Of a stretch of 32,490 nt of DNA, positions 10,902 to 21,100 are shown piece by piece (within the stretch, counting starts at the first letter, position 1; every line of letters starts with the position of its first letter). This DNA comes from Hydrogenobacter sp. (GTDB lineage: Bacteria > Aquificota > Aquificia > Aquificales > Aquificaceae): the NCBI GenBank assembly GCA_028276405.1, contig JAPYWJ010000015.1:1-32490 (forward strand), given 5' to 3'. The notes under the pieces were generated by a model. That model searched no databases. It was not told where the DNA came from and was given only the letters and a program-made list of their open reading frames with translations. Both the position numbers and the translations under genes were made by a program.

Positions 10902-13900
10902 ATGGAGCTCACAAGACGAAGTTTTTTGAAACTTTCGGGAGCCTCTGTAGGTGTTGGTATCGTTGGAGGTCTTGGTTTTGACCTCACACCAGCCTACGGG
11001 CGTGTTAGAGAGCTCAAAATAGCCAAAGCTAAGGTTGCTAAAAGTGTTTGCACTTATTGCTCCGTATCCTGCGGAGTTCTTGTATACAGTTTAACAGATG
11101 GTGCCATGAATGTAAAGCCGAGGGTGATACACATAGAAGGCGATCCAGATGATCCTGTAAACAGAGGTACCTTATGTCCTAAGGGGGCAACCCTAAGGGA
11201 CTTTGTGAACTCTCCTCAAAGAATAAAAAAGCCTCTTTACAGACCACCAGGAGCTAAGGATTGGCAAGAGATAAGCTGGGACGAAGCTTTAAACAGGATA
11301 GCCAAACTCATAAAGGATACGAGAGACAGAACATTTATAGAGAAGGATCAGGAGGGAAGGACAGTAAACAGATGTGAGAGTATTTTCTGGCTCATGGGGT
11401 GTACCATGGAAAATGAGCCAGGTTATCTTGGAGTAAAGCTGGGAAGACTGTTGGGTTTAGTGGCATTAGAAACACAAGCACGAGTGTGACACGCTCCAAC
11501 GGTGGCCAGTTTGGCCGCAAGATTTGGAAGAGGTGCCATGACCAACTCTTGGAATGACATAAAGAACGCAGACTTAATTTTTGTCATGGGAGGAAATCCT
11601 GCGGAGAACCATCCGTGCGGTTTCAAATGGGCTATAAAGGCAAGGCAGGAAAAGGGAACGAAGATAATAAGCGTAGATGTGAGGTATCATAGGACTGCTG
11701 CTGTGTCTGATATATTCGTACAGATAAGACCGGGTTCGGACATAGCCTTCATGGGAGGATTAATAAACTATGTTATACAGAATAAAAAGTACGATGAGGA
11801 ATACATAAAGTACTTCACCAACGCTACTTACATAGTAAAGGATACTTACAACTTTGACCCTACAACGGGTCTCTTCTCTGGTTATGATCCCGAAAAGAGA
11901 AAGTACGACACAAAACTCTGGGACTACGAAAGGGACGAGAAGGGGATGGTTAAGAAGGATATGACTATGGAACATCCCAGGTGTGTCTTCCAACTCCTTA
12001 AGCAGTTCTATTCAAGATACACGCCAGAGGTGGTGGAAAAGATCACAGGTGTTCCAAAAGAAAAGTTTCTTGAGGTTGCAAAACTTATAGCGGAAACTGG
12101 GGTGCCAGACAAGTCTATGACGCACCTGTATGCTCTTGGTTGGACGCATCACTCTTGGGGCACTCAGGTGATAGGCTCTATGGCCATACTTCAGCTACTG
12201 CTTGGAAACATAGGTGTGCCTGGTGGTGGCGTAAACGCTCTTAGAGGGCATGCCAACATACAGGGAATGACTGACCTTGCAGGAGAAGGTAGGTTCCTTC
12301 ACGGCTATCTTAAGCCACCCACTCCAGAACAGCAAACCCTTAAAGATTACATAGAAACCAACACGCCAAAGCCATGGGATGAAGGCTCTATGAATTACTG
12401 GTCTAACTACTCTAAGTTTATTGTCTCTTTGCTCAAGTCTTACTTTGGAGACAACGCAACGCCAGAAAACGAATTTTGCTACTCTTATCTTCCTAAACAG
12501 GACAAAATTATCTCTTGGGACGAGGCTGTGGACAGAATGTTCAGAGGCAAAATGGAAGGTGTGGTATCTATAGGTGTCAATCTGCTGGCAAACACTCCCA
12601 ATGCCAAAAAGACAGCGGTTGCTCTTTCTAACCTCAAGTGGATGGTGGTGATGGATCCCTTTGAAACTGAAATGGTTGCCTTTTGGAAACACGCAGAAAA
12701 CCCAGAGAGCATAAAAACGGAAGTGTTCCTGCTTCCTTCTGCGGTGTTTGCGGAAAAGGAAGGAACAAAAACAAACAGTGCCAGAACCCTAAAGTGGCAG
12801 TATAAGGCGGTAGAGCCACCAGAAGATGCAAAGGAAGAGCTTTGGTTTATCGGCAACCTTTACATGAAACTTAAGGAACTTTATCAGAAAGAGGGTGGTG
12901 TCTTTCCAGACCCCATACTAAAAGCAAGGTGGCCCTTCCAGAACCCGTACCATCCTACAGCAGAGGAAGTTTTAGCCCTTGAGATAAATGGTGTTGCTTT
13001 GGATGACATAAAGGATGACAAGGGCAACGTGGTGGTCAAAAAAGGTGAGAGATTGCCAAGCTTTATATACTTAAAAGACGATGGCACTACCTCCTGCGGT
13101 ATGTGGCTATACTGTGGAGTATTCCCTCAATCAGGCAATAGGGCAAAGTCAGCAGATTTAACGGATCCTTCGGGATTGGGCATATACCCTAACTACGGCT
13201 ATTCCTGGCCTGCCAACAGGAGAATACTCTATAACCGTGCTTCTGCTGGACCTGACGGAAATCCTAGGTCTCCTAAGAAAAAACTTGTGTGGTGGAACGC
13301 TAAAGAACAAAAGTGGGTGGGCTACGATGTGCCTGACATAAAACCAGACTTGCCTCCTGAGTACGGACCCTTTATCATGCTCCCAGAAGGTAGAGGTAGG
13401 CTTTATTCCCAGTTTTTAGTGGATGGTCCCTTCCCAGAACACTACGAGCCTTATGAGTCTCCTGTAGAAAACTTTTTGCACCCCAAAACGGACAAAAACC
13501 CCGTGGTAAAGGTATACAAGTCTGACCTTGACCTTTTGGGCAAGCCTGACAAGTATCCTTATGCTGCTGCAACTTATAGGGTTACAGAACACTTCCATTA
13601 CTGGACAAAACACATTTATGGCACATCTGTGCTGTTCCAAAAAATGTTTGTGGAGATACCCGAAGAGCTTGCTAAGGAGCTTGACATAAAAGAGGGTCAA
13701 AAGGTAAGGATAGTAACAGCCAGAGGTTCTGCAGAGGCTTACGCGTTGCCTACAAAGAGGATCAAACCTCTGACCGTAAACGGTAAAAAGGTATATACCG
13801 TTGGCATACCCATTCACTGGGGTTTTGAGGGAATAGTTAGAGGGTCGTTAGCAAACCTCACCACACCTTTTGTATGGGACCCTAATTCTCAGACGCCAGA

Positions 13901-13943
13901 GTTTAAGGGGTTCCTATGCAACATAGAAAAGGTAAAGGCTTAA
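10902..13943 (+). CDS. fdhA: formate dehydrogenase major subunit (selenoprotein)
   Basis: One 1013-residue gene with TGA at 11487-11489 read as selenocysteine, codon 196. Sequence around it is LETQARV-Sec-HAPTVASLAARFGRG, the exact context of the Mo/W-ligating Sec in FDH-N/FDH-O. The N-terminus has the Tat motif TRRSFLK (5-11) and a hydrophobic stretch, so the enzyme is exported folded. Cys50, 53, 57 and 92 bind a 4Fe-4S cluster, followed by the bis-MGD domains of the DMSO-reductase family. It oxidises formate to CO2 at the outer face and passes electrons to FdhB. AAGGAGG precedes the ATG. Reading it as two genes split by a stop would be wrong: frame and homology continue exactly across the TGA, a SECIS-type hairpin follows, and selC and selD are in this window. 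Confidence 0.97.
11490..11518 (+). promoter_or_regulatory. SECIS-type hairpin of fdhA
   Basis: Beginning 12 nt after the UGA, GTGGCC (11502-11507) pairs with GGCCGC (11513-11518), one pair being U-G, around the loop AGTTT. Bacterial SECIS elements sit directly 3' of the UGA inside the coding region and present a GU in the apical loop to SelB; this hairpin has the right distance, size and a GU in the loop. Confidence 0.8.
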
Positions 13944-13955
13944 AGGAGGTTAGAC

Positions 13956-14840
13956 ATGAGCACTGTTACCACAGAAGGAACCGTAGGGCTTGGTTTAAAG
14001 AGAGTTTCTGCTTCTAAGCTTCCTGACCCAAACATCAAAAGAGCGGATACTTTAGCCATACTTGTAGATATATCCAGCTGCATAGGTTGTAAAGGTTGTG
14101 AGGCAGCATGTACCCAGTGGCATGACCTTAAACCCCCACTTTTTAAAGAGGGACAGGACTTTGTAGGCTATCAATCATACCCAGACCTCATGCCAAGCCT
14201 GTTTATGATGATGAAGTTCAAGGAAGGAGAAACAGAAAAGGGGCTAACATGGTTTATAACCAAGTACCAGTGCATGCACTGTGGAGACCCGGGCTGTCTA
14301 AAAGCCTGTCCTTCCCCCGGAGCTATAATTCAGTACGAAAACGGTATAGTGGACTTTGACCACTCCAAATGTATAGGGTGTAAGTTCTGTCTTTCTGGGT
14401 GCCCCTTTGACATTCCAAGGTACGATTCAAACAATAAGCCTTGGAAGTGTAACTTTTGTGTAGACAGAGTTTCTGCAGGTTTAGAACCTGCGTGTGTTAA
14501 GGCGTGTCCCACAAACTGTTTGCACTTTGGTACAAAGGAGGATATGCTCTCAAGAGCTAAAAAGATAGTAGATCAGCTCAAAAGGAGAGGTTTTGAGAAG
14601 GCCATCATCTACGACCCACCCGGTGTGGGGGGAACGGGATACATATATGTTCTACCTCATGGAGACAAACCGCAGATGTACGGACTTCCCAAGGAGGCAA
14701 GCGTATCACCCTGGATAAGCCTCTGGAAGGGTCCTTTAAAGATCTTTGGTGCTGTAGTTCTTTGGGGTACATTGCTGGGAGCTTTCTTACAGCTCATACT
14801 TTTTGGACCCATAAAGGCAGGTAATAAAAAGGAGGATTAA
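13956..14840 (+). CDS. fdhB: formate dehydrogenase iron-sulfur subunit
   Basis: A 294-residue electron-transfer subunit, the same length as E. coli FdnH. It carries four ferredoxin-type cysteine clusters: CIGCKGCEAAC near residue 41-51, CMHCGDPGCLKACP near 106-119, CIGCKFCLSGCP near 139-150, and CNFC...CVKACP near 168-188. These take electrons from FdhA. The C-terminal region has one membrane segment (about 262-282, VVLWGTLLGAFLQLILF), which anchors the subunit with its bulk outside, exported together with FdhA by its Tat signal since it has none itself. AAAGGAGG lies between the fdhA stop and this ATG. Confidence 0.96.
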   Translation: MSTVTTEGTVGLGLKRVSASKLPDPNIKRADTLAILVDISSCIGCKGCEAACTQWHDLKPPLFKEGQDFVGYQSYPDLMPSLFMMMKFKEGETEKGLTWFITKYQCMHCGDPGCLKACPSPGAIIQYENGIVDFDHSKCIGCKFCLSGCPFDIPRYDSNNKPWKCNFCVDRVSAGLEPACVKACPTNCLHFGTKEDMLSRAKKIVDQLKRRGFEKAIIYDPPGVGGTGYIYVLPHGDKPQMYGLPKEASVSPWISLWKGPLKIFGAVVLWGTLLGAFLQLILFGPIKAGNKKED

Positions 14841-14842
14841 CC

Positions 14843-15475
14843 ATGGAAGAAACAAGACATATGGAGGATGTACAGATAGAAAGGTTCAGCAGGTTTGATA
14901 GGGTTGTTCACTGGCTTGTAGCTATAACTTTTCTTTATCTTTTCTTCTCTGGTCTTGGTATATACTCTCCTAAGTTTTCTTGGCTACTTACTCTGCTGGG
15001 AGGACTTGATTTTACAAGATGGCTTCACCCTTGGACAGGACTTTTATTTTCCGTAGGAGTGCTTCTTATGTTCTTAAGATGGTCAAAGGACTTCCTTCTT
15101 ACTTCCGATGATATGGTGTGGCTAAAGAATGTTAAGTATTATATAAAAAGCGAGGAGGAAAAATTACCAGAAGTAGGTAAGTACAACGCAGGGCAGAAAG
15201 TATTTGGTTGGCTTGTGTTTATAGGTTGTGTGGTGTTTTTGGCAAGTGGTGTACTCATGTGGTTTCCAGAAAGCTTCCCTATAAGTTTGGTTAGGCTTTC
15301 CATATTCCTTCACGATCTTGCTTTTATACTGGTAGGTGCGGGCTTTATAGTGCATGTGTATATGGGAACAGTAGGAGTTCCGGGCTCTCTGTCGGGTATG
15401 ATAACGGGGAAGGTTTCCGCTCTTTGGGCTATGAGACACCACCCTAAGTGGTTCAAAGAGGTGATGAGGAGGTGA
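14843..15475 (+). CDS. fdhC: formate dehydrogenase cytochrome b subunit
   Basis: A 210-residue integral membrane protein with four hydrophobic segments, the diheme cytochrome b of the FdnI type. Histidines expected to bind the hemes and contact quinone are seen in DRVVHWLVAITFLYLF, WLHPWTGLLF, and LHDLAFILVGAGFIVHVYMG near the fourth segment. It takes electrons from FdhB and reduces quinone, giving a formate:quinone respiratory link. It follows fdhB by 2 nt with GGAGG in the overlap region, and ends within the ribosome binding site of sodC. Confidence 0.94.
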   Translation: MEETRHMEDVQIERFSRFDRVVHWLVAITFLYLFFSGLGIYSPKFSWLLTLLGGLDFTRWLHPWTGLLFSVGVLLMFLRWSKDFLLTSDDMVWLKNVKYYIKSEEEKLPEVGKYNAGQKVFGWLVFIGCVVFLASGVLMWFPESFPISLVRLSIFLHDLAFILVGAGFIVHVYMGTVGVPGSLSGMITGKVSALWAMRHHPKWFKEVMRR

Positions 15476-15480
15476 GTGTC

Positions 15481-15996
15481 ATGGGGAGTGTTGTCAAGGC
15501 TCTGGCGCTCTGCGCCACCCTCTTTTCTTTCTCAATAGCTCAGGAATTAAAGGCGCATGCAGACCTTATAAATCAGAAGGGTGAGAAGATAGGCACAGCA
15601 GAATTTCTTCAGACGAACAGTGGTGTTCTTATAAAGCTTCGTGCGGTTGGACTTCCACCTGACTCAGAACTCGCTTTACACATACACGAAGTTGGGAGGT
15701 GCGACCCACCAGACTTTATGTCAGCAAAGGGACACTTCAATCCCTATAAAAAGAAGCATGGACTTTTAAACCCGGATGGACCACATGCAGGGGACATGCC
15801 TAATGTATTTACCGACTCTAAGGGGAGCCTAAAGGTGGATGTACTAAACACCCTTATAACCCTTGAACCTAACAAAGTAAACAGTCTTTTAAAAGAGGGT
15901 GGAACCGCTCTCATGATACACCATCACCGTGATGATTACAAAACAGACCCTGCAGGAGATGCTGGACCCAGAATAGCCTGCGGAGTAATAAGATGA
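15481..15996 (+). CDS. sodC: periplasmic Cu/Zn superoxide dismutase
   Basis: A 171-residue exported superoxide dismutase. A signal peptide occupies residues 1-20 (hydrophobic core, cut near SIAQE). Copper ligands are His67 and His69 in LHIHEVGRC, bridging His85 in KGHFNP and His147; zinc ligands are His85, His93, His102 and Asp105 (PHAGDMPN). Cys74 and Cys167 can form the usual disulfide, and the AGDAGPRIACGVI end is canonical. I chose ATG 15481 because AGGAGG (15467-15472) stands 8 nt before it and the signal peptide begins there; earlier codons from 15448 lie inside fdhC. Its place between fdhC and fdhE suggests protection of the oxygen-sensitive dehydrogenase. Confidence 0.95.
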   Translation: MGSVVKALALCATLFSFSIAQELKAHADLINQKGEKIGTAEFLQTNSGVLIKLRAVGLPPDSELALHIHEVGRCDPPDFMSAKGHFNPYKKKHGLLNPDGPHAGDMPNVFTDSKGSLKVDVLNTLITLEPNKVNSLLKEGGTALMIHHHRDDYKTDPAGDAGPRIACGVIR

Positions 15997-16742
15997 GGCT
16001 TTTTAAAGAGTACCATCTGGAGAGGTTAATGTCCCTTAAAGATAAACATGCGGAAGTCTCACACATACTGGACTTTTTGTATCATACTGAACTTTTTAAG
16101 AAGGAAATGTATGCTCAGATAAAAGATGTCCATTGGGAAAGGCACATAAAGAAGATTTACCATCTTTTTGATGTGTGTGATGCCCACGGTAGCCCATCAA
16201 TAAGGGAAACACTCCAAGAGCTAAAAAAACTTAGCAAGGAGGAATTAATCAGAAAGATGGAAAGATTCTTAAAAGAAAGGTCAGCACCTGACGAAGAGAG
16301 ATTCATATTTATTACCTTTCTTAACCCTTTCCTTTCCAAACTGTCCGAAAGCATGGACATTAAGAAAGACCAGTGGTTAAAAAACACCTGTCCTGTCTGC
16401 GGTTTTAAGCCAAGCGTTTCTTACATATCCGATACGGAAGAGATAGAAGGTGCAAGATACCTAAGTTGTGTTCTTTGCAACACAGCATGGCTATATAACA
16501 GGACCAAGTGTGTGAAGTGTGGAAACCATGAGGATGATGCTTTTGAGTATTACTACGACGAGAGAGAAAGGTATGCTCTTCTACAAGTTTGTAAAAAGTG
16601 CAACACCTACATAAAGATCATTGATATGAGGATTGACGGACTTGCTGTGCCTGAGTTTGATGATATTGCCACCCTTTCCCTTGATCTTTGGGCAAAAGAA
16701 AAGGGTTTTATAAAGTTTGAAAAAAACATCATAGGTTTATGA
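15993..16742 (+). CDS. fdhE: formate dehydrogenase accessory protein FdhE
   Basis: A 249-residue cytoplasmic maturation factor. The C-terminal half has the four rubredoxin-like cysteine pairs of FdhE: CPVC near 131-134, CVLC near 155-158, CVKC near 167-170 and CKKC near 196-199, which bind iron; the N-terminal half is helical. In E. coli FdhE is required for assembly of the Tat-exported formate dehydrogenases and interacts with their catalytic subunits. The N-terminal half is shorter than E. coli FdhE (309 residues). The ATG overlaps the sodC stop (ATGA), and its stop overlaps the next start (ATGA), which indicates one transcript. Confidence 0.93.
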   Translation: MRLFKEYHLERLMSLKDKHAEVSHILDFLYHTELFKKEMYAQIKDVHWERHIKKIYHLFDVCDAHGSPSIRETLQELKKLSKEELIRKMERFLKERSAPDEERFIFITFLNPFLSKLSESMDIKKDQWLKNTCPVCGFKPSVSYISDTEEIEGARYLSCVLCNTAWLYNRTKCVKCGNHEDDAFEYYYDERERYALLQVCKKCNTYIKIIDMRIDGLAVPEFDDIATLSLDLWAKEKGFIKFEKNIIGL

Positions 16743-17263
16743 TAAGTAGACGAGACATACTTAAGGTATTATTAAGTCTTTTTACTTTTTCGCTGGGTAA
16801 AAAAATGGAAGATATAGTGATAAAGGGTTGTGTTATAAAAAAAGATAGGCTCTATAGAGTAAACGAAGAGAGGATGATCTTTCAATGGGTAAAGGAGGAA
16901 GGGAAGGGAGTTTATTCGGTAGGCTTTATGCCTGTTATGTCTGCCTTAGCTTATCCTTTATATTCAGTAAAGATAAAACCTGTTGGCACAACGCTTGAAT
17001 ACGATGATAATTTAGCTGTTGTAGAAGCTGGAAAAAGGGTCTCCACCTTCCCCACACCTATAGGTGGTAGGATAGTTGAGGTGAATCACTCCTTGGAAAG
17101 GGATCCATCTGCACTGGTTAGCTCTCCCTACGAGGCATGGATGGTGAAGATAGCTTCTGATGACATGGACAGTCTCAAAAAGCTAAAGAGAGCACAGGAT
17201 ATACTAAAAACTGTAGAAGCTATAATTATCAGAGAAAATATAGAATGCTTTCCCAAAAGGTAG
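16739..17263 (+). CDS. GcvH-like lipoyl-domain protein with Tat-type signal
   Basis: A 174-residue protein. Residues about 40-140 match the glycine-cleavage H protein fold: RMIFQWVKEEGKGVYSVGF, PVGTTLEYDDNLAVVEAGKR, GGRIVEVNHSL and SSPYEAWMVKI. Lys99 in VVEAGKR aligns with the lipoyl-lysine of GcvH (VVESVKA). Unlike GcvH, it begins MISRRDILKVLLSLFTFSLG: twin arginines plus a short hydrophobic stretch, so Tat export is possible. A role in glycine cleavage is unlikely because no gcvT or gcvP is nearby; it lies in the fdh run directly after fdhE and before selC. It could carry a dithiol for redox work or for enzyme assembly. Aquificaceae are known to have several GcvH-like proteins, some linked to sulfur metabolism. 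Function unproven. Confidence 0.8.
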   Translation: MISRRDILKVLLSLFTFSLGKKMEDIVIKGCVIKKDRLYRVNEERMIFQWVKEEGKGVYSVGFMPVMSALAYPLYSVKIKPVGTTLEYDDNLAVVEAGKRVSTFPTPIGGRIVEVNHSLERDPSALVSSPYEAWMVKIASDDMDSLKKLKRAQDILKTVEAIIIRENIECFPKR

Positions 17264-17437: not shown

Positions 17438-18940
17438 ATGGAGGTTCTTGATTATAGAGCTTACAAGCCCAGACCTTTCACAAAAGAGGAAAAAGCAAAA
17501 ACCACTGTGCTTTTTGGAGGACTAACATGGAAGCACGAAAGGCTTATACAAGCAATGCTTGAAAACATGGGATACAAAGCTCAACCTCTTCCAGAAATAA
17601 GGAGGATGGACCTTGATATAGGTAAGGAGTTTATAGATGTAGGTGCATGCTGTCCTACCACCTTTACTGCAGGAAACCTTGCAAGAACCCTTATGGATAT
17701 AGAGAAAAGGGAAGGTAAGGAAGTAGTAAAAGACAGGTATGTGTTTGTAACCATAGGTGCGTGCGGACCTTGTAGGTTCGGGCAGTATCACGAATCTTAT
17801 GAAAGGGCGCTTGAAGGATTAAACCTGAGGGACTTTAGGCTATTTCTGTTAGACCTTCTTCAAATGGAGCAATCGGTAAACGGTGGAGGGCTTGAGATAA
17901 ACACGCCTCTTACCATAGGGCTTGTATACGCCATGTTTATTGGAGACCTTCTTACGGACCTTGAATACGCAACAAGACCTTACGAAGTGCAAAAAGGACA
18001 TACGGACAAGGTATTAAAGGATAGTGTAGAACTTCTTTACGAAAGGCTAAGAAATAGACCCATAAGGGGCAAAAAGTTTAGCTCTTTTGTGTGGCATCTA
18101 ACCACTGACTATTTTGTAAAAGCTCTAAAGGAGGTAAAGGAACTCTGGGATCATGTAGAGGTAGACAGGCTAAGGATAAAGCCTAAGGTGAAGATAACAG
18201 GGGAGTTTTGGCTTCAGACTCATGAAGGTGAAGGCAATTATAACATAAAAAGCTGGCTTGAACAGGAAGGCGCGGAGGTTATACCACCACCCATAGCTGT
18301 GTGGATGGACTACCTTATAAACATGGAACTCTTCAAACTGGAGGACAAGAAGGATTTTGTAAAGTTCTATCATCTCAAAAGGGCAATAGTTTTGCTTTTT
18401 GCAAAGCTTTACAGATACACATACAACAAACTTAGGAAGCCTCTGAACAACATACCTAATCCTCTGCCAGATCAGAGAACTTTAAAAGAACTTGCCAGAC
18501 CTTACTTTTATTACAGGTTAACAGGCGGTGAAGGACACATGCTCGTAGGAAAAGCCCTTTATGCTTACAAAAACAAGCAGGCACACATGGTATGTGAGCT
18601 TTCTCCTTACGGATGCCTTCCCAACACCATGTCCGTAGGAGCTATGGCAAAGGTCTTAGGAGATTATCCAGACTTACTTTACGCACCCATAGAGATAAAG
18701 GGAGATGCAGAAGTTCATGCCCTTTCAAGATGTCAGATGATCCTAACAGAAGCCAAAAGAAGAGCCAAGGAGGAGTTTGAACAAGTTCTTGAGAAAACAG
18801 GTCTTAGCATAGAAGACATAAGAAACTTTGAATTAGAAAGACCAGAGCTTAAAAAAGCAACATACAAAATACCTCATTACGGATACGCAGGCACCGCATC
18901 CAACTATGTGATGCACATAGCAAAGCTTATGGGGAGGTAA
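17438..18940 (+). CDS. HgdB-like / double-cubane-type reductase component
   Basis: A 500-residue protein of the 2-hydroxyglutaryl-CoA dehydratase component family (COG3581 type). Conserved cysteine blocks are GACCPTTFTAGN (Cys71, Cys72), IGACGPCRFGQY (Cys109, Cys112), and CELSPYGCLPNTM near residues 384-396; these resemble the cluster-binding positions of the family, including the double-cubane cluster proteins that reduce small molecules with ATP-driven electrons. No signal peptide. The activator ATPase follows 3 nt downstream. There are no acyl-CoA genes or CoA transferase nearby, so a fermentative dehydratase role is improbable. The substrate is unknown. GGGGG precedes the ATG. Confidence 0.82.
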   Translation: MEVLDYRAYKPRPFTKEEKAKTTVLFGGLTWKHERLIQAMLENMGYKAQPLPEIRRMDLDIGKEFIDVGACCPTTFTAGNLARTLMDIEKREGKEVVKDRYVFVTIGACGPCRFGQYHESYERALEGLNLRDFRLFLLDLLQMEQSVNGGGLEINTPLTIGLVYAMFIGDLLTDLEYATRPYEVQKGHTDKVLKDSVELLYERLRNRPIRGKKFSSFVWHLTTDYFVKALKEVKELWDHVEVDRLRIKPKVKITGEFWLQTHEGEGNYNIKSWLEQEGAEVIPPPIAVWMDYLINMELFKLEDKKDFVKFYHLKRAIVLLFAKLYRYTYNKLRKPLNNIPNPLPDQRTLKELARPYFYYRLTGGEGHMLVGKALYAYKNKQAHMVCELSPYGCLPNTMSVGAMAKVLGDYPDLLYAPIEIKGDAEVHALSRCQMILTEAKRRAKEEFEQVLEKTGLSIEDIRNFELERPELKKATYKIPHYGYAGTASNYVMHIAKLMGR

Positions 18941-18943
18941 GAC

Positions 18944-21100
18944 ATGTTTTTGGGTATAGATGTGGGGAGTACAACCTGTAAGTATGTCCTTACAGATGAA
19001 AGTGGAAAGATATTAGATAAAGTTTACGAAAGACACAACACAAAGCAAGCGGAAAAAGTGCTGGAATTTCTTACAAGGTTAGAAGAGTCCTTTGGCTTAA
19101 AGGCAGGGAGGGATAGGGTTTATCTGACGGGTTCGGGGGCTGGACTTGTTGCCAAGCTAATAGGTGGTAAGTTCCTTCAGGAGGTGGTGGCGGTAGCAAC
19201 AGCTGTCGAAAGATTACATCCTAAGGTGCGATTTGTCAGTGAGATAGGTGGTGAGGATATGAAGACCATCTTTATAAAGGAGGATGAAGGGAGGAGAAGC
19301 AGACAGGTGTTCATGCAAAATGTGTGTGCTGGTGGCACAGGTAGTTTTATTGAGAAGTCAGCCAGAAAGTTAGGAATAACTCAAGACCTTCTGTCGCGTA
19401 TGGGTTATAAGGGTTATACCCTTCACAAGATAAGTTCCAAGTGTGGCATCTTTGCTGAGGCGGATGTAAACTCCCTTCTGAAAGCAGGTGTTCCTACAGA
19501 AGAGATAATAGCTTCTCTTTTTGAAGCGGTAGTTTACCAAAACCTCTCTCAGCTCACAAAGGGCAACACACCTCTTCCAGAAGTATTACTCCTTGGAGGT
19601 CCAAACTTGTTCTTCAAGGGTCTGCAAGAAGCTTGGCGACACCATCTTAGAGAACTGTGGAAAGCAAGAGGTGTTGGAGAGTTTTCAGAGGAAGATATGG
19701 AAAGACTCGTTTATGTACCAGAATACTCTCTATTCTACGCATGTTTGGGCTGTGTATACACCGCAATGGAGGAAGAGGGCGGTGGGGTTTACATGGGAAG
19801 GGAAAAGTTAGAGTGGTGGGTCAGAGAAGGACAGTATCAAGAAAAGCTAAAGGAAGGGAAACGCGGGCTTGTAAACTCTCAGGAAGAACTAAGAGTTTTT
19901 TTAGAAAAATACGAGCGTGCAGTTTCTAACCAAGTGAACACAAAAAAGTCAAAAAGAGTAATCGTAGGCTGTGATTTTGGCTCTACAACCGCAAAGGCTG
20001 TATGCATAACACCCGAAAAGGAGATAGTCTTTTCCTGCTACAGTCTTAGTAAAGGCAATCCCATAGAAGACGCCAAACAAGTCTTCAGACAGATAAAGGA
20101 ATACTTAGAAGATGGAGAAGTTCTTGCTCTTGGTATCACCGGTTATGGAAAGGACTTACTTAAAGACATATTGGGTGCAGATGTAGCTGTTGTGGAAACC
20201 GTAGCCCATGCCACAGCCGGGCTTTATTTCTTTCCTGATGCGGACTGTATATGCGATGTAGGAGGAGTGGATGTTAAGATCATGATACTAAGACAAGGTT
20301 CTGTGGTGGATTTTAGGTTAAACTCTCAGTGCAGTTCAGGAAACGGCGCCTTTTTGCAAGGCGTTGCGGAGAGGTTCAATATACCCCTTAATCAGATAGC
20401 ACAAAAGGCTTTTTCAGCAAAAGCCATGCCTACATTCACGATGGGGTGCGGTGTTTTTCTTCAAAGCGACATAGTCAATCAGCAAAGAAAAGGTTGGCAA
20501 GCAGAAGAAATACTGGCAGGTCTTTGCTATGTGCTACCCCTGAATGTATGGATATACGCGGGAAACATAAACAACCTCTCCCAGGTAGGTAAAAAGTTTA
20601 TACTTCAGGGTGGAACCCACAGAAACCTTGCGGTAGTAAAAGCTCAGGTGGATTTTATCAAGTCAAAGGTTCCCGACGCAGAAGTGTATGTACATCCCTA
20701 CTCAGGTGAGGCAGGTGCCATAGGGTCTGCTTTGATTGCCTTAGAACAATGGCAAAAGCAGAAAACTACTAAGTTCAGAGGTTTTGACACTATAGAGAAG
20801 ATAGAATACAGAGCCATCACATCGCAAGACACGGTGTGCCACTGGTGTCCTATAAACTGCCAAAGGACTTTTATAGATGTTAAGCTACCAGAAGGAGAAG
20901 GGAGACCTTGGAGCAAAATACCCCTTGAAAAAGGCTGGGTAAGGCTTATAGTGAACAACTCCTGTCCCAAGGGTCTTGTAGAGGATGAAAGGGAGCTCAA
21001 GGTCATAAAAGAACAGATGGAAAAGATAAAGAAGAATTTCCCCAACATATCCCAAATAGTTAGGAAGTCTGCTTTTAGAAAGCTCAAGAGCGTGTTATAA
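18944..21100 (+). CDS. tandem-ASKHA activator ATPase (BadF/BcrA/HgdC type)
   Basis: A 718-residue protein with two HgdC-like ATPase domains in one chain. Domain 1: GIDVGSTTCKYVL (4-16), QNVCAGGTGSF with Cys128, ISSKCGIFAEADV with Cys167. Domain 2: GCDFGSTTAKAV (342-353), NSQCSSGNGAF with Cys463, TMGCGVFLQSD with Cys502. In HgdC homodimers two cysteines from each subunit hold one 4Fe-4S cluster; here the four cysteines could hold it within one chain. The C-terminal region adds VCHWCPINC (631-639) and NNSCPKG (671-677), a further cysteine site of the large-activator group (COG1924/COG3580-like). It would use ATP hydrolysis to send low-potential electrons to the upstream HgdB-like protein. Confidence 0.87.
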   Translation: MFLGIDVGSTTCKYVLTDESGKILDKVYERHNTKQAEKVLEFLTRLEESFGLKAGRDRVYLTGSGAGLVAKLIGGKFLQEVVAVATAVERLHPKVRFVSEIGGEDMKTIFIKEDEGRRSRQVFMQNVCAGGTGSFIEKSARKLGITQDLLSRMGYKGYTLHKISSKCGIFAEADVNSLLKAGVPTEEIIASLFEAVVYQNLSQLTKGNTPLPEVLLLGGPNLFFKGLQEAWRHHLRELWKARGVGEFSEEDMERLVYVPEYSLFYACLGCVYTAMEEEGGGVYMGREKLEWWVREGQYQEKLKEGKRGLVNSQEELRVFLEKYERAVSNQVNTKKSKRVIVGCDFGSTTAKAVCITPEKEIVFSCYSLSKGNPIEDAKQVFRQIKEYLEDGEVLALGITGYGKDLLKDILGADVAVVETVAHATAGLYFFPDADCICDVGGVDVKIMILRQGSVVDFRLNSQCSSGNGAFLQGVAERFNIPLNQIAQKAFSAKAMPTFTMGCGVFLQSDIVNQQRKGWQAEEILAGLCYVLPLNVWIYAGNINNLSQVGKKFILQGGTHRNLAVVKAQVDFIKSKVPDAEVYVHPYSGEAGAIGSALIALEQWQKQKTTKFRGFDTIEKIEYRAITSQDTVCHWCPINCQRTFIDVKLPEGEGRPWSKIPLEKGWVRLIVNNSCPKGLVEDERELKVIKEQMEKIKKNFPNISQIVRKSAFRKLKSVL

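Follow-up and report, generated by a model that had tools for sequence, protein, structure and literature searches.

The window, by which we mean the whole 32,490-nucleotide stretch of Hydrogenobacter sp. DNA that was analysed, encodes a formate dehydrogenase (FDH) operon that includes, between fdhE and the gene for tRNA-Sec, a gene for a lipoate-binding protein to which we give the working name lbpX (Table 1). The in-frame TGA of fdhG lies at the same place in all 19 other loci that cover it. The initial annotation had already located the lipoyl-protein gene between fdhE and selC with no glycine cleavage genes nearby, and this placement holds: the ATG of lbpX shares bases with the fdhE stop codon (ATGA), and neither the open reading frames nor the Pfam matches revealed glycine cleavage genes within the window. 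Because the first base of selC belongs to the lbpX stop codon and selC comes after lbpX at 22 of the 23 loci at which we found the gene, the exception lying near a contig end, tRNA-Sec is probably co-transcribed with the selenocysteine FDH. The operon contains sodC at 14 of these 23 loci and lacks it at nine. Beyond selC (17438-21100) are two genes, the first encoding a 500-aa protein without a Pfam or NCBIfam match and the second a 718-aa acyl-CoA dehydratase activase-like protein (BcrAD_BadFG). Of the fetched loci, just those in the genus of the window gave matches to both at that place.

Table 1. Features of the fdh operon and of lbpX, with positions in the window.
Feature	Position	Strand	Basis
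fdhG, selenocysteine FDH catalytic subunit; TGA at 11487-11489; Tat signal MELTRRSFLK	10902..13943	+	1127 bits to E. coli Fdh-N 1kqf
fdhH, FDH iron-sulfur subunit	13956..14840	+	TIGR01582 over cut-off
fdhI, FDH cytochrome b subunit	14843..15475	+	TIGR01583 over cut-off
sodC, Cu/Zn superoxide dismutase; N-terminal signal-like stretch	15481..15996	+	Pfam Sod_Cu 4.5e-38
fdhE, FDH maturation/Tat-proofreading factor; stop overlaps lbpX start	15993..16742	+	Pfam FdhE_central, FdhE_C; co-occurs with lbpX 23/23
lbpX, Tat-like-tagged LbpA-type lipoate-binding protein, 174 aa	16739..17263	+	ORF; GCV_H match; 23 orthologues; own clade beside LbpA2
N-terminal tag, residues 1-22: MISRR, hydrophobic helix 4-16, basic KK before mature domain	16739..16804	+	R4 and R5 invariant in 23; hydrophobicity, basic residues; model helix
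Cys31 codon, N-terminal LbpA-type cysteine	16829..16831	+	23/23 invariant; LbpA hallmark (PMC6067878)
Lys99 codon, predicted lipoyl-lysine in E-A-G-K	17033..17035	+	23/23 invariant; aligned with E. coli H-protein lysine
Cys170 codon, C-terminal LbpA-type cysteine	17246..17248	+	23/23 invariant
selC, tRNA-Sec; first base is last base of lbpX stop codon	17263..17362	+	ARAGORN; Rfam RF01852

Residues 41-160 of LbpX match Pfam GCV_H at 1e-29, the only family found in the protein, and its AF2 model, with a mean pLDDT of 87.7, resembles H-proteins of known structure, the best match being 1onl (E 2.7e-10). These matches, together with the conservation of Lys99 in all 23 orthologues, bear out the H-protein fold and lipoyl-lysine position described in the initial annotation. 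That annotation had also called the protein GcvH-like and set it apart from LbpA, an assignment that we reverse. LbpX scores below the cut-offs of the GcvH equivalog models (58.2 bits vs 115.85 for TIGR00527; 72.4 vs 117 for NF002270), and it carries, previously overlooked, the hallmark of LbpA proteins, a conserved cysteine close to either terminus that GcvH does not have (PMC6067878). An alignment of LbpX from the 23 genomes contains 42 invariant columns, and R4, R5, Cys31, Lys99 and Cys170 are all invariant. In a maximum-likelihood tree of the 23 LbpX proteins with LbpA1, LbpA2, a stand-alone LbpA type and GcvH, LbpX forms a single clade (support 100/100) that joins beside LbpA2 (94/95) and away from GcvH, with an exact attachment point that is less sure because the stem is long. 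Within the clade, the tree broadly tracks genera. By these sequence criteria, LbpX is an LbpA-type variant and not GcvH, with a new partner and probably also a new location relative to LbpA. We file it as a variant rather than as an LbpA of sHdr because it lies in the fdh operon at all 23 loci and never in or beside an sHdr cluster. LbpX is predicted to be lipoylated on Lys99.

The host genome encodes other lipoyl-type proteins. Its true gcvH is on contig C36 (L066), with a putative gcvPA gene next in order, and its LbpA1 and LbpA2 belong to an sHdr cluster that also encodes LipS1 and LipS2 (contig C49, L064). A stand-alone LbpA-type gene also occurs outside the sHdr cluster (L065:8419-8865, on contig C9 of G000); it has related copies in other genera of the family, and these proteins group near LbpA1 in the tree. 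The possibility that LbpX is itself the glycine cleavage H protein was considered and is rejected on the grounds of the equivalog scores, the cysteine pair, the tree and the separate true GcvH.

LbpX begins with MISRRDILK, and its approximately 22 N-terminal residues are absent from other LbpAs. Within this tag, R4 and R5 are the only residues that are invariant among the 23 orthologues. Behind the arginine pair, every one of them has a hydrophobic segment, with a GRAVY of 1.2-2.4 across 13 residues, and then one or more basic residues ahead of Cys31. Cores typical of Tat signals, namely RRDFLK, RREFLK and RRSFIK, occur among the orthologues, and TatC is encoded in the host genome. The model places a helix at residues 4-16 and a low-confidence segment at 17-22 ahead of the H-protein domain. 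An AxA site is present in three of the 23 N-termini and missing from the other 20; hence the twin-arginine-type signal originally proposed can be called Tat-like only. Uncleaved Tat anchors exist, and because AxA is found in only 3/23, an anchor that stays uncleaved is as likely as a released LbpX. We consider Tat targeting and export of LbpX likely.

We also considered whether the tag could be an artefact of a wrong start codon. In each of the 23 orthologues the 27-30 codons ahead of the first cysteine read through without a stop, and the arginine codons differ among orthologues (AGA, AGG, CGA, CGT, CGC, CGG) while the arginine pair stays, which together argue that the tag is not due to chance. 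About half of the orthologues write the pair as AGGAGG or AGGAGA. These hexamers look like a ribosome site, but the residues remain constant while their codons differ. Some orthologues have no internal ATG, but GTG or TTG codons remain, which makes this feature unusable as proof of the start site. The codon differences indicate a weaker constraint on the tag than on the mature part, which is expected of a signal but is not decisive. We therefore reject a wrong start as the main reading, given that the arginine pair, the frame and the hydrophobicity are kept in 23/23 and that the ATG overlaps the fdhE stop. The charge of the mature domain is basic in three genera and near neutral or acidic in two, and because its sign differs among genera, it is uninformative about the location of LbpX.

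In a sample of 64 genomes from the family of the window (Aquificaceae), LbpX, FdhE and the FDH-N beta subunit occur in exactly the same 23 genomes and are all absent from the other 41, and lbpX lies immediately 3' of fdhE at every one of the 23 loci. The initial annotation had made its proposal depend on whether homologues keep both the arginine pair and Lys99 and flank fdhE; since all three features hold in 23/23, no orthologue contradicts it on these points. Both the presence and the absence of the lbpX-FDH combination are found within each of five genera, which indicates that the association outlived several losses or gains, events that are not independent in number. Two genomes without FDH retain remnants of lbpX only, broken in G048 (L062) and 5'-truncated in G041 (L063), both beside selC. 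The selC gene itself persists in these genomes (95 bases in G048 and 96 bases in G041). A wider scan that covered one genome per species for 84,980 species, using two peptide patterns that could miss distant relatives, returned just 11 loci. Ten of these are titled Aquificota or Aquificaceae, and the remaining one, titled Acidobacteria, is on a contig of length 15,254, the same as contig C18 of G039. The sequence evidence for a link between LbpX and FDH is strong, with the caveat that the sampled family is one lineage in which the operon may come and go as a unit. We conclude that LbpX is very probably a dedicated LbpA-type accessory of FDH, whatever its chemistry.

A candidate for that chemistry comes from the distribution of FdhD, which passes sulfur to the FDH cofactor; FDH is inactive without its sulfido ligand, and some FDH-bearing organisms have no fdhD (PMC10609526). 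We found no FdhD in 21 of the 23 LbpX genomes, a point that the initial annotation had missed. In the other two, G027 and G028, gene order and families place fdhD beside a soluble NAD-type FDH. These soluble FDH clusters (L061 in G027 and L060 in G028) share their genomes with the periplasmic FDH-LbpX system. In family f5 of the same class, two genomes encode FdhE and FdhD without LbpX. In one of them, G133, fdhG (with TGA) and fdhH are succeeded by a pair of small genes, the latter a weak match to fdhI, and then by fdhE and fdhD; the FdhG of this operon is about 50% identical to that of the window. Its fdhD thus occupies the slot after fdhE that lbpX holds in the window. This exchange, seen in a comparison outside the family that comprises the two f5 genomes, is the strongest pointer to LbpX function. 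Because FdhD is missing, FDH assembly or maintenance is the role that fits best. Among the roles originally offered, FDH assembly survives and can be sharpened to replacement of FdhD, whereas an electron route found no support.

Our preferred reading, proposed tentatively, is that an LbpA-type protein acquired a Tat-like signal and, as an exported or membrane-held sulfur carrier, installs or restores the sulfido ligand of FDH in place of FdhD. LbpX would fold in the cytoplasm, where Lys99 would be lipoylated by the LbpA-type lipoylation machinery of the host, and the twin-arginine segment would bring the folded, lipoate-bearing protein to or across the inner membrane, where a possibly uncleaved helix may tether it close to FDH. 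The dihydrolipoyl arm together with Cys31 and Cys170 would then carry sulfur and reducing power, and LbpX would install or restore the Mo/W sulfido ligand, a job done elsewhere by FdhD. LbpA has been proposed as a sulfur carrier for sHdr, and dihydrolipoate is a known acceptor of sulfane sulfur (PMC6067878); sulfur transfer from LbpX to FDH is a hypothesis. The sulfido ligand of FDH is lost in oxygen, and sulfide with a strong reductant restores it on folded FDH without a chaperone (PMC12140954). An exported carrier would suit repair or late loading of a periplasmic FDH in a microaerophile. The more specific claim, in which an exported, lipoylated LbpA-type protein replaces FdhD and (re)installs the Mo-sulfido ligand of the periplasmic selenocysteine FDH, we regard as doubtful. 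Since FdhD acts in the cytoplasm before export, a periplasmic replacement implies that sulfuration occurs late. We know of no in vivo precedent for sulfuration of FDH after export. Two sequence features weigh against the mechanism: no Mo cofactor binding site is evident in LbpX, and the AxA cleavage site is missing from most orthologues (20/23). The compartment is its weak point, and the same chemistry could take place on the cytoplasmic side if the tag is merely a device for docking to the membrane or to FdhE.

That alternative places the same FDH-dedicated LbpA-type carrier in the cytoplasm, with an N-terminus that serves as a membrane anchor or as a mimic of a Tat signal at FdhE, TatC or the membrane, and with sulfuration of FDH before export. 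It would agree with the cytoplasmic site at which FdhD performs sulfuration and with NarG, whose non-exporting Tat remnant is bound by its chaperone (PMC10609526). The general lack of a cleavage site and the coupling of lbpX to fdhE, whose product is a cytoplasmic factor, also favour it, yet a simple anchor would make the invariant arginine pair and the Tat-typical cores superfluous, and we consider it unlikely. Less probable still is that exported LbpX acts in a microaerophile as a dithiol guard that, beside SodC, maintains the reduced state of FDH at its selenocysteine, cysteines or clusters, without sulfur transfer. LbpX has the lipoyl lysine and two cysteines that such a guard could use and shares 14 of 23 operons with sodC; however, lbpX is kept at the nine loci without an operon sodC, and a guard leaves unexplained both the absence of FdhD and the presence of fdhD in the same slot of relatives. 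It is very improbable that lbpX is a passenger, an LbpA2 duplicate carried in the fdh operon by chance: its linkage could reflect inheritance as a block, and its tree broadly follows genera, but the 42 invariant columns across 23 genomes, the decay of lbpX where FDH was lost although selC remains, and its persistence in operons without sodC argue otherwise. Finally, a role in glycine cleavage, or in formate assimilation through a reversed glycine cleavage system, is hardly credible, since the H-protein fold, the adjoining formate enzyme and the annotation of the Aquifex aeolicus copy as gcvH1 (PMC10052474) are set against a GcvH equivalog score of 58 with a cut-off of 116, the LbpA cysteines, a separate true GcvH and an export-type N-terminus.

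The history of that annotation may bear on why LbpX went unnoticed. The A. aeolicus gene gcvH1 (aq_1052, O67151) is numbered just past fdoGHI (aq_1039-aq_1049), and its product, listed at 16.2 kDa, went undetected among the soluble proteins (PMC10052474). In our set, the full lbpX reading frame of genome G001 encodes 19.9 kDa, and translation from a TTG at codon 33 would yield 16,181 Da. G001 is probably A. aeolicus. The gene gcvH1 is probably an lbpX orthologue that was annotated from a downstream start. Because 16.2 kDa matches the TTG start, both the tag and the first cysteine are very probably missing from the publicly annotated protein, a loss that may explain why the protein escaped attention.

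Lipoate is known to serve as a swinging arm in the cytoplasm, both in sHdr sulfur oxidation and in a few complexes of central metabolism. In the open-access literature, we found no paper that assigns lbpX a function for FDH or describes its product as an exported lipoyl protein, and no relevant paper on periplasmic lipoylated proteins. LbpX is a lipoyl-type protein with an export-type signal and is tied one-to-one to a molybdenum/selenium enzyme. If the proposed mechanism is correct, it would be, to our knowledge, both the first lipoyl carrier that acts outside the bacterial cytoplasm and the first protein-assisted, FdhD-independent route to active FDH. The LbpX proteins of Aquificaceae are a concrete, testable candidate for the replacement of FdhD, and they suggest a new way to make or repair the FDH active site. 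A natural carrier for loading or repair would be of practical use because FDHs matter for CO2 reduction and oxygen strips their sulfido ligand (PMC12140954).

LbpX can be compared with four known proteins. The LbpA2 of sHdr, its nearest clade, likewise has the H-protein fold, a lipoyl lysine in E-[SA]-G-K and a cysteine near each end, but the two are about 33% identical, and the arginine-hydrophobic tag and the fdh operon are particular to LbpX whereas LbpA2 belongs to the shdr cluster. GcvH has the fold and the lysine position in common with LbpX but has neither the cysteine pair nor the tag, and it falls elsewhere in the tree. The gcvH1 of A. aeolicus differs in how it is annotated: it is assigned to glycine cleavage, and its annotated sequence very probably starts beyond the tag and the first cysteine. 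FdhD resembles LbpX in its position after fdhE in a homologous operon of another family, in its strict tie to FDH and in its likely job; in contrast, its sequence and fold are unrelated, LbpX being outside the FdhD-NarQ family, and FdhD is a cytoplasmic protein that binds the Mo cofactor (PMC10609526).
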